A DNA stretch of 64,000 nucleotides, from the NCBI RefSeq assembly GCF_013408745.1, contig NZ_JACCBJ010000001.1, positions 2,976,001 to 3,040,000 on the forward strand, in the 5' to 3' direction. The notes beneath the pieces are model-generated. The model saw only the letters and a list, made by a program, of their open reading frames with translations. It was not told the origin of the DNA and did no database searches. This DNA is from Leifsonia soli. GTDB taxonomy: Bacteria > Actinomycetota > Actinomycetes > Actinomycetales > Microbacteriaceae. This document shows, one piece after another, positions 44,000-50,468 of this stretch (its first letter is position 1; the number at the start of each line of letters is the position of its first letter). A program made the position numbers and the translations under genes.

Positions 44000-44971
44000 T
44001 CAGCTGTAGCTGGGCTGTCCGAGCTCGTCGAGGATCCGGTTGAGATCCTGAATGGTGGCGAAGTCCACCACGATCTGGCCCTTGCGTGCGCCGAGAGAGA
44101 TCTTGACCCGTGTATTCAGCCGATCTCCAAGCTGACCAGCAATTTCATCGAGATGACCTCGGTGCCGGCCCGCTGTCGCCTTGGTGCGCGGGGGCTTCGG
44201 CGTCTTGCTCGCCGCGGCCTCGGCAGCGCGCACGGAGAGGTCTTCGTTGACGATCTTGTCGGCGAGGCGGATCATCGCCTCCTGGTCGTCGCCGAGCGAC
44301 AGGATCGCCCGCGCGTGTCCTGCGCTCAGCACACCTGCAGCCACCCTGGCCTGCACCGACGCCGGCAGCTTGAGGAGCCGGATGGTATTGGTGATCTGCG
44401 GACGCGACCGTCCGATCCTGGTGGCGAGCTCCTCCTGAGTGATGCCGAAGTCGGCGAGGAGCTGCTGGTAAGCGGAAGCCTCCTCCAGTGGGTTGAGCTG
44501 GCTCCGGTGGAGGTTCTCCAGCAGCGCGTCGCGCAGCATGTCCTCGTCTGCCGTGTCCTTCACGACCGCGGGGATCGTGTCCAGCCCGAGTTCCTTTGTG
44601 GCGCGCAGACGGCGCTCCCCCATGATCAGTTCGTAGCGGCCCGGCTCGTCGGGAAGGGGGCGCACGACGACCGGCTGGAGCACGCCCACCTCGCGGATGC
44701 TCGCGATCAGCTCGTCGAGGGCGTCGCGGTCGAACTCGGTGCGCGGCTGGACGCGGTTCGGCACGATGTCGGCGGGGGAGAGGCTGGCGAGCCGAGCTCC
44801 CGGAACCGCGACCAGATCGTCCTCTCGCTCGGCGAGTGCCACGGCCGAGCGCGCCGTCGCCGCTCCCGCATTGCTGTCGGGGAAGAAGACGTCGACGGGA
44901 CGAGCGGACTGATCGCTGGTCGGGATGAGGGCGCCGATTCCTCGGCCCAGTCCGGTGCGCTTCGCTGCCAT
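44000..44971 (-). CDS. parB: chromosome-partitioning protein ParB
   Basis: A 323-residue CTP-dependent clamp that loads at parS and spreads. The CTP-binding motif region contains MGERRLRATKELG and ENLHRSQLNPLEEA; the HTH follows at TQEELATRIGRSRPQITNTIRLL. The C-terminal dimerisation domain ends in QDLNRILDELGQ. The N-terminal segment starts MAAKRTGLGRGIGALI, which contacts ParA. Its ATG overlaps the parA stop (TAATG). The extraordinary number of parS sites next door are its expected targets. Confidence 0.95.
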   Translation of the reverse strand: MAAKRTGLGRGIGALIPTSDQSARPVDVFFPDSNAGAATARSAVALAEREDDLVAVPGARLASLSPADIVPNRVQPRTEFDRDALDELIASIREVGVLQPVVVRPLPDEPGRYELIMGERRLRATKELGLDTIPAVVKDTADEDMLRDALLENLHRSQLNPLEEASAYQQLLADFGITQEELATRIGRSRPQITNTIRLLKLPASVQARVAAGVLSAGHARAILSLGDDQEAMIRLADKIVNEDLSVRAAEAAASKTPKPPRTKATAGRHRGHLDEIAGQLGDRLNTRVKISLGARKGQIVVDFATIQDLNRILDELGQPSYS

Positions 44972-45921
44972 TAGCGGGGTACTCCTCTTCGTGCGATCTC
45001 GGCGGCCGCCTCCATGTAGGAGAGCGAGCCACTGGAGTTGGTGTCGTAGCTGATGACGCTCTGTCCGTAGCTCGGCGCTTCGGAGATCCGGACCGAGCGA
45101 GGGATGATCGTGTCGAGCACTTCGTTGGGGAAGTGCTCGCGAACATCCGCGGCGACCTGATGGGCGAGGTTCGTGCGGGAGTCGTACATCGTGAGCAGGA
45201 TCGTGGAGACCTGGAGCTTGGGGTTCAGGTGCCGTTCGATCAGCTGGATGTTCTTCAGCAGCTGACTCAGGCCTTCGAGGGCGTAGTACTCGCACTGGAT
45301 CGGAATGAGGACCTCGCTCGCGGCGACGAACGCGTTGATCGTGAGGAGCCCGAGCGACGGCGGGCAGTCGATGAGCACGTAGTCGATGTCGTACTCGTCG
45401 AGGAAGCGGCTGAGGGCGCGCGACAGTCGCTGTTCGCGCGCCACCATGGAGACCAGCTCGATCTCGGCACCGGCGAGATCGATGGTAGCCGGGACCACGA
45501 AGAGCCCGTCGAACTCCGGGCTCTTCTGAATCACTTCGTCGAGCTCGCGGTCATTCACCACCACGTCGTAGACGCTAGGAGTGCCCTCGCGATGCTCGAC
45601 ACTCAAAGCGGTCGACGCGTTGCCCTGCGGGTCGAGGTCGATCACGAGCACCCGCGCTCCCGACTTGGCGAGCGCCGCGCTGAGGTTGACCACGGTGGTC
45701 GTCTTCCCGACGCCACCCTTCTGATTGGAGATCGTGAAGATCCGCGTCTGCGAAGGAAGGGGGAGCGTAGTGGATGCGATCACCTGGCGACGGCGGGCCA
45801 GTTCTTGAATCTCCTGCGCCAGCGGTGTGCCCGCGTCGAAGCTGTCATCCGTCGTGTCGGCATCCGTCACGCTGTCGATCTCACCTACTCCGCCGTGTTC
45901 ATCCTGATGGGGTTGTTTCAC
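44971..45921 (-). CDS. parA: chromosome-partitioning ATPase ParA (Soj)
   Basis: A 316-residue deviant Walker ATPase that moves ParB-parS complexes over the nucleoid. ISNQKGGVGKTTTVVNLSAA is the Walker A region, LDPQGNASTAL and IDCPPSLGLLTINA the A' and B boxes. An acidic tail of about 45 residues precedes the ATPase. The start used is GTG 45921, which is inside a perfect parS and has GAGG six bases upstream; an in-frame GTG 18 codons later is an alternative that would leave parS outside the gene. The start location implies ParB autoregulation. Confidence 0.94.
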   Translation of the reverse strand: MKQPHQDEHGGVGEIDSVTDADTTDDSFDAGTPLAQEIQELARRRQVIASTTLPLPSQTRIFTISNQKGGVGKTTTVVNLSAALAKSGARVLVIDLDPQGNASTALSVEHREGTPSVYDVVVNDRELDEVIQKSPEFDGLFVVPATIDLAGAEIELVSMVAREQRLSRALSRFLDEYDIDYVLIDCPPSLGLLTINAFVAASEVLIPIQCEYYALEGLSQLLKNIQLIERHLNPKLQVSTILLTMYDSRTNLAHQVAADVREHFPNEVLDTIIPRSVRISEAPSYGQSVISYDTNSSGSLSYMEAAAEIARRGVPR

Positions 45922-45928
45922 GTGAAAC
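45915..45928. promoter_or_regulatory. parS site 1 (perfect), over the parA start
   Basis: GTTTCACGTGAAAC, the perfect 14-bp palindromic core of bacterial parS. The parA GTG start codon lies within it. Confidence 0.92.
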
Positions 45929-46095
45929 CTCGTCGCTTTGTGGTGCTCCGCACCGGCTTTCGGCTGGCCGTCGGCACACCCTCAGCGCACCCGTGAACAA
46001 CTCTAACTCGGATGTCCGACGCTTACCGCGCGCCGCGCAACCTGTGGAGAAGTGCGACCCCGAGGATCACCGCAGGCTCGGTCCTCCAGGCCGCC

Positions 46096-46109
46096 GATTC
46101 ACGTGAAAC
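46096..46109. promoter_or_regulatory. parS-like site 2 (one mismatch)
   Basis: GATTCACGTGAAAC, one change from the perfect core. Outside the tandem array. Confidence 0.7.
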
Positions 46110-46195
46110 GGTGGTCGTCGCGGCCTCGCCCCTGACGCGACGTTGTCATGCCGAAGCCCTTCATGGCACAAACGTGCACACGGCACTCTGGGCCG

Positions 46196-46209
46196 ACTTC
46201 ACGTGAAGC
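46196..46209. promoter_or_regulatory. parS-like site 3 (degenerate)
   Basis: ACTTCACGTGAAGC. The central CTTCACGTGAAG is still a perfect palindrome, but three positions differ from the parS core. Confidence 0.45.
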
Positions 46210-46494
46210 CAAGGCACGCGGACCGGCGGTATGACAAGGGAGGGGACCCCGCCTGATCCAGCCGCAGGGCACAGGTCGGGGAGCACCCGAGCATTGTTGG
46301 TGTTCGGGACTACAGGCCGTCGTTCCGCGCAAGGGTAGGGTACGCGGACGTACGCGGCCGGCCGTGTGGCCAGGGCCACAGATTCACAGCGATACGCTCA
46401 GCAACGGCGTCTGCAGGTGCAGCACTCCATCGGATCGCAACCCGCAGCAGAGCGGACAGGGCCACCGGTTGCGTATTCTCGGCACAAGGCCGAC

Positions 46495-46508
46495 GTTTCA
46501 CGTGAAAC
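46495..46508. promoter_or_regulatory. parS site 4 (perfect), array unit 1
   Basis: Perfect GTTTCACGTGAAAC in the first tandem unit, 84 bp from that unit's CTGCAGGTGCAG motif. Confidence 0.92.
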
Positions 46509-46653
46509 TGACCGCGTACGGCTCGGCGCTGTGCCCGGAGGCGGGTCGGTGAAATCCGATCCGCCACGACGCCTGCAGGTGCAGCACGCCGCTGCACCTA
46601 GACCGGCACGGGGAGCGGACCGACCGGCTGCGTCTGGGAGGCCGGGGGTCTCC

Positions 46654-46667
46654 GTTTCACGTGAAAC
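46654..46667. promoter_or_regulatory. parS site 5 (perfect), array unit 2
   Basis: Perfect core, 159 bp after the previous one, followed by CCCAGGACGTACGA. Confidence 0.92.
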
Positions 46668-46815
46668 CCAGGACGTACGAGCCAGCGGTGCGCCCTGAAA
46701 CGGGTCGGTGCAATCCGACCGCGACGACGTCTGCAAGTGCAGCACTCCCCGGACTCCAACCAGCAGGGGAGAGGGCCCCACCCGCGGATCGCGTGTTCCA
46801 GCGCCGCACGCCGAC

Positions 46816-46829
46816 GTTTCACGTGAAAC
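46816..46829. promoter_or_regulatory. parS site 6 (perfect), array unit 3
   Basis: Perfect core, 162 bp after the previous one, followed by CCCAGCTCGTACGACC. Confidence 0.92.
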
Positions 46830-46978
46830 CCAGCTCGTACGACCCAGCGGTGCGCCCTGAGACGGGTCGCTGCAATCCGCTCAGCAACGACGTCTACAGG
46901 TGAAGAACTCCCCGGACTCCAACCAGCAGGGGAGAGAGCCCCACCCGCGGATCGCGTCTTCCAGCGCCGCACGCCGAC

Positions 46979-46992
46979 GTTTCACGTGAAAC
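46979..46992. promoter_or_regulatory. parS site 7 (perfect), array unit 4
   Basis: Perfect core, 163 bp after the previous one, in a unit nearly identical to unit 3. Confidence 0.92.
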
Positions 46993-47135
46993 CCAGCACG
47001 TACGACCCAGCGGTGCGCCCTGAGACGGGTCGCTGCAATCCGCTCAGCAACGACGTCTGCAGGTGCAGCGCTCCTGGACTCGAACCGGCCGGGAGCGGAC
47101 CCGACCGACCGCGTCTTCCAGCGCCGGACGCCGAC

Positions 47136-47149
47136 GCTTCACGTGCAAC
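47136..47149. promoter_or_regulatory. parS-like site 8 (two mismatches), array unit 5
   Basis: GCTTCACGTGCAAC, 157 bp after the previous site. Flanks are those of the array, so this is a mutated copy. Confidence 0.6.
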
Positions 47150-47285
47150 CCAGCACGTACGACCCAGCGGTGCGCCCTGAGACGGGTCGCTGCAATCCGC
47201 TCTGCAGGTGCAGCGCTCCCCGGACTCCAACCGGCAGGAAGCGGGCGCGACCGACGGATCGCGTCTTCCAGCGCCGGACGCCGAC

Positions 47286-47299
47286 GTCCCACGTGAAAC
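47286..47299. promoter_or_regulatory. parS-like site 9 (two mismatches), array unit 6
   Basis: GTCCCACGTGAAAC, 150 bp after the previous site; one half-site is intact. Confidence 0.6.
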
Positions 47300-47446
47300 C
47301 CAGCACGTACGGCCGGGCGGTGCGCCAAGAGGTTCGTCCTGATCTGCGCACCCCGGAAGCGTCTCCGGGAACGAGGCTCTGCCTCACGTCAACCGGCAGG
47401 GGAGCGGTCCGAGCGACCGATCGCGCATCCAGGATCGGCGGCGGAC

Positions 47447-47460
47447 GTTTCACGTGAAAC
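47447..47460. promoter_or_regulatory. parS site 10 (perfect), array unit 7
   Basis: Perfect core, 161 bp after the previous site, in the most diverged unit; the core is kept while the flanks have drifted. Confidence 0.92.
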
Positions 47461-47959
47461 CCAGGACGTGCGGCCAGCCGTTTACCGCGGGAGGTGATAC
47501 GGCCCGGTCCGATCCGATCAAGACGACTTCTGCAGCTTCAGTACTTCGCTCGGCCCGACACCACGTCCGTCCGTGAGGCCACCCACGCTTCCGGACGCGT
47601 CCGCCGGCCCAGCGCCCAGTATCGGTACGCCGCATGGCAGCTCTATCGCCGCCAGACCGCTACCGCCATCGCATGTCGTACGGAATCGGCTCTCTGTTGT
47701 CCCGAACCGCTCGGTCCGCACGACTCATCCGCGGGGGCGGCAGAGCCCGATGTTGCAGGATCGGGCTCGCGAGCCAAAACGTCAATCGCGAACGTCTGAT
47801 TCGTGGGTCCGCCCGATGGCACCCGTGCCTAGTGACGGGGAGAACTCATGGTGCCGCACCAACGTGAGCCCCAACCGACCTCCGACAGACGCCGGCGCGC
47901 AACCGTGGAGGTGGCCCCAGCGAGGAGCAGAGTGCACGCGGACCCTCCACATGGAGACC

Positions 47960-47973
47960 GTTTCACGTGAAAC
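47960..47973. promoter_or_regulatory. parS site 11 (perfect)
   Basis: Perfect core outside the tandem array, in sequence unrelated to the repeat. Confidence 0.92.
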
Positions 47974-48162
47974 ACTGCCCGAACGCCTCCGGGATCGGAA
48001 TTCCGGAGCGGGGATCCTGCGGTGCACCATGCTCGCGCACATCCCGGTCGATTGCCAAATGCAGCGGTCGCTCCACATCTGCGTGCAGACCGCACCACCT
48101 GACGGCCACCGGGTCCTGGGCGGGCAAACCCGGGGGAGACGCGGGCGAACCGCGAACCCGAC

Positions 48163-48176
48163 GTTTCACGTGAAAC
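48163..48176. promoter_or_regulatory. parS site 12 (perfect)
   Basis: Perfect core, 203 bp from site 11. The preceding CCGAC resembles the array flank. Confidence 0.92.
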
Positions 48177-48440
48177 AGGACCACATTGTGCGGCACCATT
48201 CCGGGCGCGACGATCGGTACGCCTGACGAGTCGCCTCTGTCGGGGCCCTGTTTGTCGCGCGAGTCCGTCGCATGAACGGGCCCTACAGACCTTCCGGTTC
48301 CGATACAGCGCTTCGGCACCATGCGAAAGCAGAAAGTGTCCGATGCCTAGTGCAGGACTCGAGCCGGCAGTCCCATAGTTCGCCGCGCCCTCAGTGAGCA
48401 GATGTTGCAGCGTCTACGTTCGACGCCGATCGATGCGATA

Positions 48441-48454
48441 GTTTCACGTGAAAC
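48441..48454. promoter_or_regulatory. parS site 13 (perfect)
   Basis: Perfect core, 278 bp from site 12, no array flank. Confidence 0.92.
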
Positions 48455-49269
48455 CTTGTCCATCGTGAGGCCGGCCAGCGGCGGCACCCCCTCGTGGATG
48501 CCCGCTTCAACGGCCCCCCCAGAGCCCAACCAGCACGGCAGTCTCGCAGTGCGCGCGCGCCGCGCCCCGTTGATTCACCCTCAATGCTCTTCCCTCTGAT
48601 CGGACCACGGGCTCACAACACCGAATCTCAGCGTCTCGACGTCAGCGATGCGGAGAACCAGACGACACCGGATAGGGGAGGGGGAACGCATCCATACGCC
48701 CAGCATGAGAGCGGCGGGAACTCGGTTCACACACGCCATCGCGAGACGACGGATCGACATCCCACTGTCTTGAACCCGAGGGCCGGACGACCAATCGAAT
48801 GGACCACGCCGAGCTTGGTCACCCGGCGCGAGTCACGCCCGCACCGATGATCATCTCGTCAAGGCCTGCCGCCGTGATCTCGTACCTACCGGAGAGAGAC
48901 CGCGGTGCGTGACTCCAACTTCGTTGATGACCCCTTGGCCGAAGGTGCTCGGTCGATACCGACAGACCACAGCCTGTCACAACCGCGACACGGGTTCTCG
49001 GGTCAATCCCGACCAACGAGCCCTGATCTCCATTCAGACCATCCACCCCGCGATAGTCGTGATACCCGTGATGGCCCGTGACCCACCACATGCGAAGCCC
49101 GAGGTCACATGGAGCGATCCAGGGCTCGGAATCAGCCCCATCCGACACCACATCGTGCAAAACCGGAGCGTCCGAGGAGGCGGAGCGAGGCGCACGATGG
49201 CTCTCAGACAACGGAAGCACGCGCTTCGGATGCCACAGAGCGATCCTCAGCCGCATTGGACGGAGTGCG

Positions 49270-49896
49270 TCAGCGGACGCGAGCGCGTATGACCCGGGTG
49301 ACTTCCGCCAGAACGCCCTCGCCGAGGGTCAGAACCTCGATATCGCTCACCTTGTACTTCCTGATTTCCTTGGCCGCCGCCTCGACCTCGGCTGGCGCGC
49401 CCGCGCCCTTCATCAGAACGAGCTCACCGCCGTCCCGGAGCAGGGGAGCCGTCAGGGGGAGGAGCTTGCGGAAGGCACTGACCGCGCGCGCCGTCACCTG
49501 ATCCAGAGGCGCGTCGATGCGCACGTCCTCCGCCCGGGCCCGCAGCACTGTCACGTTCTCAAGGCCCAGTTCGGTGACTTGCTCGTTGAGCCACGCAATC
49601 CGGCGCTCCATCGGCTCGATCAGAACGAACGACACGTCGGGTCGTGCGATCGCGAGGACGAGCCCGGGAAGGCCGGCTCCGCTGCCGACATCACCCACTC
49701 GCCCAGGTCGGAGGAGGGGAGCAACGATGGCGCAATTCAGGATGTGCCGAGACCACAAGCGGGGGAGCTCGAGCGGACCGATAAGTCCGCGCTCTTCACC
49801 CTGGTCCGCGAGGTTCTGAGTGAATCGACGCGCGAGTTCAATACGGTCACCGAAGAGGGCGGCCGCCGCCTCCGGTTCCTGCTCGACGTCGCTCAC
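49270..49896 (-). CDS. rsmG: 16S rRNA (guanine527-N7)-methyltransferase
   Basis: A 208-residue SAM-dependent methyltransferase (GidB) that modifies G527 of 16S rRNA; its loss gives low-level streptomycin resistance in other species. Motif I is VGDVGSGAGLPGLVLAI, followed by FVLIEPMERRIAWLNEQV and ARAEDVRID, ending with the C-terminal GGELVLMKG. GTG start directly after a perfect parS. No classical ribosome site is visible, so it may rely on coupling with khpB, 14 bp upstream. Confidence 0.93.
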   Translation of the reverse strand: MSDVEQEPEAAAALFGDRIELARRFTQNLADQGEERGLIGPLELPRLWSRHILNCAIVAPLLRPGRVGDVGSGAGLPGLVLAIARPDVSFVLIEPMERRIAWLNEQVTELGLENVTVLRARAEDVRIDAPLDQVTARAVSAFRKLLPLTAPLLRDGGELVLMKGAGAPAEVEAAAKEIRKYKVSDIEVLTLGEGVLAEVTRVIRARVR

Positions 49897-49897
49897 A

Positions 49898-49911
49898 GTT
49901 TCACGTGAAAC
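49898..49911. promoter_or_regulatory. parS site 14 (perfect), between khpB and rsmG
   Basis: Perfect core that fills the whole gap between two genes: its last base is part of the khpB stop codon and it ends one base before the rsmG GTG start. Confidence 0.92.
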
Positions 49912-50468
49912 TAGCTCGCCGTGATGACCGTGTAACGATCGCGACCCTCGCCCCGCGAGGTCGAGACGTAGCCACGCTCCGACACCACGTCATGAACAAG
50001 CTTGCGCTCGTAGGAGGACATCGGCGGGAGAGCGGCCTCGGCCGCGCCCTCGTCGAGACGCTCGATCGCGCGGTCGACCAATCGGGCCAGCTCGGCCTGG
50101 CGAGCATCGCGGGATCCCGCGATGTCCAGGATGAGTCGGGAGTACCCGCCGGTCTGGTTCTGCACGGCGAGGCGAGTCAGCTCCTGCAGTGCGGCGACCG
50201 TGTCGGCATTCGCCAACAGAGAAAGATTCGATGCGTCGTCATCCGTGTTCACGGAGATGTAGGCACGCCCATTGCGGGTGTCGATGTCGATGTCACCGTC
50301 GATGTCGGCGATGTCGAGCAGTTCCTCGATGTAGTCGGCAGCGATGTCGCCTTCGCGATCGAGATCGGCAGCGGTCGGTTCGGCCGTCTCGGCCGCCACG
50401 GCGGTGTCGTCCGCAGCCACGTCGGTGAGGTCGGCGGGCTCGGGGGAGGAGGTCTGCACGTCGGTCAT
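49911..50468 (-). CDS. khpB: KH/R3H-domain RNA-binding protein KhpB (Jag)
   Basis: A 185-residue RNA-binding protein. An acidic, Ala/Asp-rich N-terminus (about 1-40) is followed by a KH-like domain (about 45-110; VNTDDDASNLSLLANADTVAALQEL) and an R3H domain (about 120-180; ARQAELARLVDRA, MSSYERKLVHDVV). It forms the conserved yidC-khpB pair and acts in RNA and cell-division control in Gram-positives. It starts 16 bp after the yidC stop. Its stop codon shares one base with parS site 14. Confidence 0.9.
   Translation of the reverse strand: MTDVQTSSPEPADLTDVAADDTAVAAETAEPTAADLDREGDIAADYIEELLDIADIDGDIDIDTRNGRAYISVNTDDDASNLSLLANADTVAALQELTRLAVQNQTGGYSRLILDIAGSRDARQAELARLVDRAIERLDEGAAEAALPPMSSYERKLVHDVVSERGYVSTSRGEGRDRYTVITAS

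Follow-up and report, generated by a model that had tools for sequence, protein, structure and literature searches.

The window analysed here, 64,000 nucleotides of the Leifsonia soli genome (RefSeq contig NZ_JACCBJ010000001.1, positions 2,976,001 to 3,040,000), contains a chromosomal ParABS partition locus whose predicted ParB-binding sites, the parS palindromes, are concentrated in a stretch of DNA without identified genes. The gene order is parB, parA, 3.35 kb free of identified genes, rsmG, an R3H-domain gene that we take to be jag, and yidC, with dnaA lying 2.9 kb from the last parS site and 6.9 kb from the first. Three features identify the system as a chromosomal ParABS: (i) adjacent ParA and ParB genes, (ii) the consensus parS palindrome, and (iii) proximity to the origin region, as judged by dnaA. 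The ParB of the window is the sole match to the HTH_ParB profile in the genome, and ScpA, by which alone the SMC-ScpAB partner is judged, is present above the cut-off. An earlier note on this DNA had pointed to core genes beside the sites and to a 3.35-kb gene-poor insertion between parA and rsmG. The core genes dnaA, yidC, and rsmG do adjoin the locus, and the gap measures 3351 bp. Its median length is 143.5 bp among 64 Microbacteriaceae genera represented by one genome each; all gap lengths are approximate distances between protein-hit ends.

A search for the parS 14-mer with up to three mismatches, with shuffled sequence as the null, returns 14 matches in the 64-kb window, all of them between 45915 and 49911, compared with a mean of 1.07 and a maximum of 4 in the shuffles. 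Ten sites are exact, one has a single mismatch, two have two, and one (46196) has three; the fourteen sites in 4.0 kb that the earlier note had listed, ten of them as perfect, were all recovered at the same places. The concentration extends to the whole genome, a single contig of 3,917,147 bp. All ten exact copies lie within this cluster, as do 13 of the 15 places that match with up to two mismatches. The remaining two, with two mismatches each, are about 148 kb and 79 kb away, and no denser cluster occurs elsewhere in the genome. The picture of a built-up, concentrated, gene-free parS stretch beside parAB and dnaA thus stands.

Table 1. Features of the parABS locus of Leifsonia soli (positions in the window)
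Feature	Position	Strand	Description
parB	44000..44971	-	323 amino acids; ParB_N, HTH_ParB, and ParB_C (Pfam) and TIGR00180 over cut-off
parA	44971..45921	-	316-amino-acid Walker ATPase; Pfam AAA_31, CbiA; predicted GTG start within parS 1
parS 1	45915..45928		exact; overlaps predicted parA start
Conserved parA upstream region	45929..46071	-	0.86-0.90 identical to four relatives where aligned
Hypervariable non-coding island interior	46072..49200		coverage 0.00-0.01 against four relatives
parS-like 2	46096..46109		one mismatch
parS-like 3	46196..46209		three mismatches, weak
Degenerate tandem array	46395..47326		5.9 copies of a 163-bp unit, each with one parS; 79% matches
parS 4	46495..46508		exact
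parS 5	46654..46667		exact
parS 6	46816..46829		exact
parS 7	46979..46992		exact
parS-like 8	47136..47149		two mismatches; decayed array copy
parS-like 9	47286..47299		two mismatches; decayed array copy
parS 10	47447..47460		exact; last recognisable array unit
parS 11	47960..47973		exact
parS 12	48163..48176		exact
parS 13	48441..48454		exact
rsmG	49270..49896	-	208 amino acids; TIGR00138 over cut-off
parS 14	49898..49911		exact; jag-rsmG junction
jag/khpB-like gene	49911..50468	-	R3H domain (Pfam)
dnaA	52767..54197	+	TIGR00362 over cut-off

Seven successive sites, from 46495 to 47460, sit in a degenerate tandem array with a unit of about 163 bp, a feature that the earlier note overlooked. The spacing from parS 4 to parS 10 is 159, 162, 163, 157, 150, and 161 bp, and parS 10 is carried by a further, more decayed unit beyond the called array. 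Identity between array copies is 0.918 in the parS columns and 0.695 in the others, and parS itself has decayed in two copies out of seven. Away from parS, no stretch of 14 columns reaches the parS value, so that no second conserved motif was found in the repeat unit. The closest pair of copies is 95% identical and the array overall has 79% matches, a divergence that, as a matter of sequence, would disfavour an assembly artefact of a short repeat.

The DNA between parA and rsmG shows no coding signal in the window. Its longest open reading frame (ORF) is 217 amino acids, compared with a shuffle mean of 271, and its codon-phase contrast of 0.25 lies within the shuffled range (mean 0.19, maximum 0.26) and below the 0.60 of parA. 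Seven of the longer ORFs in the gap have no Pfam match at E ≤ 1, and no Rfam match at E ≤ 1 occurs within it. A decayed gene or mobile element was considered for this gap and rejected, as the Pfam, Rfam, ORF-length, and codon-phase tests are all empty. Terminator and promoter scans do no better than on shuffled sequence, and the RNA fold beside rsmG has a z of -0.54.

Both ends of the gap carry sites that recur in the genus. Among the 27 genus loci analysed, the parS on the predicted parA start (the first GTG of the ORF) is kept at the equivalent position in 26, and a site near the jag-rsmG junction is found in 20. As the predicted parA GTG lies inside parS in those 26 loci, ParB may control parA. 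About 130 bp upstream of parA are conserved in several relatives in an alignment of eight genomes, and this conserved stretch is the probable parA promoter; a sigma-70 consensus scan upstream of parA gave no match. The GTG directly follows a purine-rich stretch that is a possible ribosome site; in the window this region is at 45910-45928.

The new aspect of the locus is how the island evolves, namely by fast sequence turnover between the sites. The ParB of the window is 97.2% and 97.5% identical to those of two sister species (G021 and G019, respectively), and parB, parA, rsmG, jag, and yidC are 0.81-0.92 identical to theirs at the DNA level, with parA at 0.89-0.90 and rsmG at 0.81; the stretch upstream of dnaA is 0.96 identical. 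The island interior has a coverage of 0.00 against both at E ≤ 1e-5, and of 0.00 and 0.01 against two further relatives (G018 and G024) at the same threshold. At E ≤ 1e-3, with both strands searched, alignment in the interior is confined to short patches (about 20-64 bp), most of them at parS, and the nearest relatives align over about 130 bp at the parA end and about 55 bp at the rsmG end. Some pairs of islands are less divergent; G021 and G019 share 1065 bp, and G001 and G012 share 807 bp. Set beside satellite DNA, the island shows the rapid turnover between close relatives, its interior having no coverage in two sister species, while head-to-tail units with one binding site each hold only 7 of its 14 sites.

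What the islands do share is mostly parS. Words of ten nucleotides were compared across 18 genus islands with exact parS masked, the ends trimmed, and shuffles as the null, and the most widely shared of them are parS-like, occurring in up to 10 of 18 islands versus 0.1 in shuffles. The genus islands, 43.7 kb in total, contain 22 sites with one or two mismatches to parS; ten shuffles gave 0.0, and control DNA from nearby (161.7 kb) has 0. Together, the excess of near-parS sites, the parS-like shared words, and the unalignable interior are the trace expected from gain and loss of parS in free DNA. The conserved element does not extend outward, the flanks of parS carrying little information in the genus. 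DnaA-box-like words, namely GTTATCCACA and its neighbours, also turn up across the family, in 4-5 of 22 islands (0.8-5 kb gaps), compared with 0-0.05 in shuffles.

Compact parS clusters beside parAB are a habit of the genus and of the family. Each of 28 genus genomes has 3-10 exact parS, the genome of the window having the most. In all 27 genomes of the genus whose locus was analysed, no exact parS falls outside the parAB locus, and the sites span 1.0-5.4 kb. The parA-rsmG gaps of the genus range from 144 to 4318 bp, with 18 of 27 loci at 970-4318 bp. In all, 191 of 198 loci were analysed, the other seven (G022, G258, G029, G248, L016, L021, and L080) having no usable ParA or RsmG hit. One representative per genus was taken (G028-G103), of which 64 of 76 were analysed; out were G040 (no RsmG hit), G029, and ten further representatives (G036, G038, G051, G053, G054, G062, G069, G075, G083, and G087). 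The gap is at least 800 bp in 16 of these 64 genera, and for 55 of the 64 the analysed locus contains every exact parS that the genome has. At least one exact parS occurs in 372 of 398 family genomes, and ten or more occur in 12 of 398, the window's genome included, in a count made by eye (two of the genomes, G207 and G248, are fragmented assemblies).

In sites per approximately 4 kb, the window ranks tied fifth to eighth among the 191 loci. The densest are all from one genus, g19, with 13 (G375), 13 (G338), 12 (G255), and 11 (G172) sites. Thirty family genomes had been added to the set, 28 of them picked for high parS counts (6-20) and two for having none, so that the family figures for arrays, flanks, slots, and sites per 4 kb describe a non-random sample. 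The earlier note had taken the cluster to be exceptional among chromosomes and had proposed comparing its density with that of other Microbacteriaceae. By that comparison the window is the richest in its genus and no outlier beyond it, given the compact clusters in 27 of 27 genus loci, the denser loci of g19, and the same layout in Microbacterium and Agromyces; it is a strong but not an extreme case of a layout habitual in the genus and family. Two genera, g15 and g29, lack exact parS in 5 of 6 and 11 of 12 genomes, respectively, although parA is next to rsmG in, for example, G041 and G055. The ParB proteins of g15 and g29 may prefer another motif.

Duplication has left traces at a minority of these loci. 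Tandem Repeats Finder called arrays that include at least two exact parS in 11 of the 191 loci, with periods of 163 (the window and G140), 287, 156, 279, 120, 82, 106, 151, 107, and 51 bp, and the same loci also yield array rows of other periods. The genus accounts for five of these loci and the rest are in five other numbered genera and Agromyces humatus, so that such arrays recur in six genera or more. When the flanks of neighbouring parS pairs were compared, with the 99.5th percentile of the null as the threshold, shared flank exceeded the null in 10 of 101 pairs (6 of 27 loci) in the genus, against 4 of 685 random pairs, and in 17 of 259 pairs (7 of 60 loci) in the family sample, against 6 of 1516. 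Flank homology and arrays thus make duplication one real source of sites, with most pairs bearing no sign of it; fast decay could hide older duplications.

The clusters also differ in where they sit. Across 114 loci with 504 exact sites, the parA-rsmG interval has 259 (counting those on start codons), the rsmG-jag interval 126, and the side downstream of parB 99. Two sites fall inside parA, parB, or rsmG, and the other 18 are placed at jag, beyond it, or in loci in which no jag was identified. Ten genomes have three or more sites downstream of parB. Within g19, a 3.6-4.0-kb rsmG-jag interval holds 6-13 exact parS in G255, G288, G172, G045, and G375, while in G338 and G358 it is the parA-rsmG gap that is long (3577 and 4025 bp) and that holds most sites. 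These varied slots imply that clusters formed, or moved, in different places around parAB.

Many sites in one place are known from other bacteria, including Corynebacterium glutamicum, an actinobacterium, and Myxococcus xanthus, which belongs to another phylum. In most bacteria parS are clustered within 5-40 kb, and SMC collisions have been raised as an issue for scattered parS, according to excerpts of PMC8357415. M. xanthus carries 24 parS upstream of parAB and resembles the window in having many sites in one stretch beside parAB near the origin, where ParB foci segregate; it differs in that this locus is about 30 kb from ori (excerpts of PMC3778016). Elsewhere, two parS upstream of parAB are described in excerpts of PMC6650430, and those of PMC5703909 mention parS once, in general terms. 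C. glutamicum has ten consensus parS in one cluster, nine of them intergenic, which loads ParB and SMC, and a single parS supports wild-type-like growth (excerpts of PMC7083940). Its sites cover 35 kb and are 73 kb away from oriC, compared with 4.0 kb at 2.9-6.9 kb from dnaA in the window, and the same excerpts describe neither an island nor a tandem array there. Contigs of Microbacterium, Agromyces, and Nesterenkonia are closer in layout, with 6-9 exact parS in about 4 kb beside parAB among the matches listed (L014, L015, L017, L023, L024, L026, L059, and L056). The 51-bp parS-bearing tandem unit of Agromyces humatus differs from that of the window, and the sites in Nesterenkonia lie mainly on the parB side. 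No such islands are described in the papers found on parS with Microbacteriaceae or Microbacterium, as judged by their listings and, for PMC4255298, by its parS excerpts.

Plasmid partition centromeres offer another likeness, that of many ParB sites packed together. The parS of pSM19035, for example, is built of repeated ParB sites. In contrast to such centromeres, the window has the chromosomal parS motif, copies 150-163 bp apart, extra DNA in each repeat, and a place on the main chromosome. The earlier note had judged the locus closer to a plasmid partition locus, a view at odds with the chromosomal motif, the sole HTH_ParB protein, and the single-contig genome. A plasmid or chromid partition locus was likewise rejected because the genome is a single contig, the core genes dnaA, yidC, and rsmG are adjacent, and the locus is common to the genus.

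A design opposite to the single island of the window is seen in family f28, of the same phylum and another class, in which counts of exact GTTTCACGTGAAAC were compared across genomes (loci L268-L293). Copies number 135 in G689, 114 in G548, 110 in G648, 53 in G731, 49 in G789, and 28 in G699 (genomes of 2.8-4.0 Mb), and nine other sampled f28 genomes have 3-14 each. In G689, among 96 of the 135 copies, the sites are scattered from 1 kb to 2.93 Mb, with 64 in the first 0.53 Mb; some pairs are 34-49 bp apart, and 17 of 26 copies examined extend to ATGTTTCACGTGAAACAT.

In known ParABS systems, parS is where ParB clamps are loaded; from there they spread, and they stimulate ParA and let SMC-ScpAB in. 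On this background, the island is probably a non-coding centromere and ParB-loading platform kept by the birth and death of parS copies. The only consensus parS cluster of the chromosome would act as a centromere built as a non-coding island, with fixed ends formed by the parA upstream region and the parA-start parS on one side and the jag-rsmG parS on the other. Between these ends, a number of parS sites would be the only selected content of the DNA. ParB would load as cytidine triphosphate clamps at many places inside the 4 kb and then spread, giving one strong ParA-pulled focus and one entry point for SMC-ScpAB in gene-free DNA; having many sites would be of benefit. Sites would be gained partly by tandem duplication of parS-bearing units, as in the 163-bp array, and duplication may be a main source; they would be lost by point decay, with selection retaining parS while the intervening DNA drifts. 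In favour of this model are the confinement of exact parS to the parAB locus here and in 27 of 27 genus loci, the turnover of the interior, the shared parS-like words and the near-parS sites, the tandem arrays and shared flanks, the rarity of sites inside parA, parB, or rsmG, the single HTH_ParB protein, and the presence of ScpA.

Several observations weigh against this centromere model or limit the evidence for it. In nine of the 27 genus loci the gap measures just 144-169 bp and the sites number 3-4 (these nine genomes group together in the genus tree, with a local support of only 0.736). Two results favour the model with a caveat each: genus loci with longer gaps have more sites (Spearman 0.66, p 1.7e-4, n=27), in a correlation that ignores phylogeny, and parS differs less from the consensus than the rest of the array (4 of 98 versus 192 of 1080 differences; Fisher p 1.7e-4), in a test that counts related copies as independent. 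No shared flank is detectable in 91 of 101 neighbouring pairs in the genus and in 242 of 259 in the family sample, and a few words other than parS recur in 5-6 of 18 islands, beyond shuffles, among them AGAATGGCTC (6 of 18) and CACTCCCCCG (6 of 18). Phase contrast exceeds all 60 shuffles in 4 of 18 genus gaps (G001 0.36, G012 0.27, G019 0.24, and G024 0.25), the window not being among them, and ORF length exceeds all shuffles in 1 of 18 (G017, 480 amino acids), so that the gaps of some relatives may hold a gene. A need for ten sites is unproven, since relatives manage with 3-4 and one is enough for wild-type-like growth of C. glutamicum.

One alternative is a neutral by-product, in which a tolerant parA-rsmG spacer grows and shrinks by slippage and duplication and extra parS hitch-hike, with only one or two of them mattering. 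Such a process would account for gaps of 144-4318 bp within one genus, the decayed parS in two of seven array copies, the many near-parS sites, and the single parS that is enough for growth of C. glutamicum in the excerpts of PMC7083940. It is nevertheless unlikely, because parS-like words are the most widely shared element of largely unalignable islands, the array shows tighter constraint on parS than on its flanks, and at least 3 exact sites are kept in 28 of 28 genus genomes. Regulation could explain the two ends, where parS falls on the predicted parA start (26 of 27 genus loci) and near the jag-rsmG junction (20 of 27) and bound ParB would control expression; its extension to the interior, where sites would silence or act as roadblocks, meets the difficulties that these sites lie away from every identified gene start and that their number varies widely between species, which makes it very improbable as an account of the island. 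An insertion remnant, in which a mobile element or block of genes landed between parA and rsmG and decayed to the present 3.35 kb, with parS arising or being captured inside, would explain a large spacer where the family median is so short. It is barely credible in view of seven gap ORFs without a Pfam match and none longer than in shuffles, inverted pairs of which most, among the 17 listed, are built around parS itself, a G+C content resembling that of neighbouring DNA, and the fact that 18 of the 27 genus loci have gaps, 970-4318 bp long, whose content is mostly unalignable.

For the family as a whole, the centromere model takes a bolder form, which is put forward tentatively and as something short of probable: the Microbacteriaceae may possess a fast-evolving bacterial centromere that is free of genes, rebuilt in each species by the birth and death of parS units, and shifting between slots (parA-rsmG, rsmG-jag, and downstream of parB). 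If this is true, function would be kept by the number and closeness of sites rather than by descent of the sequence, and the island would be a bacterial counterpart of rapidly evolving centromeric satellites, its DNA turning over within a genus while ParB stays 97% identical between the window and its sister species. The number and spacing of parS is an open question, as one site suffices in some bacteria and many keep several. With 3-10 sites, short and long gaps, and largely unalignable DNA between the sites, the genus amounts to a natural experiment on whether dense parS improves the forming of ParB foci, avoids SMC collisions, or keeps clamps away from transcription.

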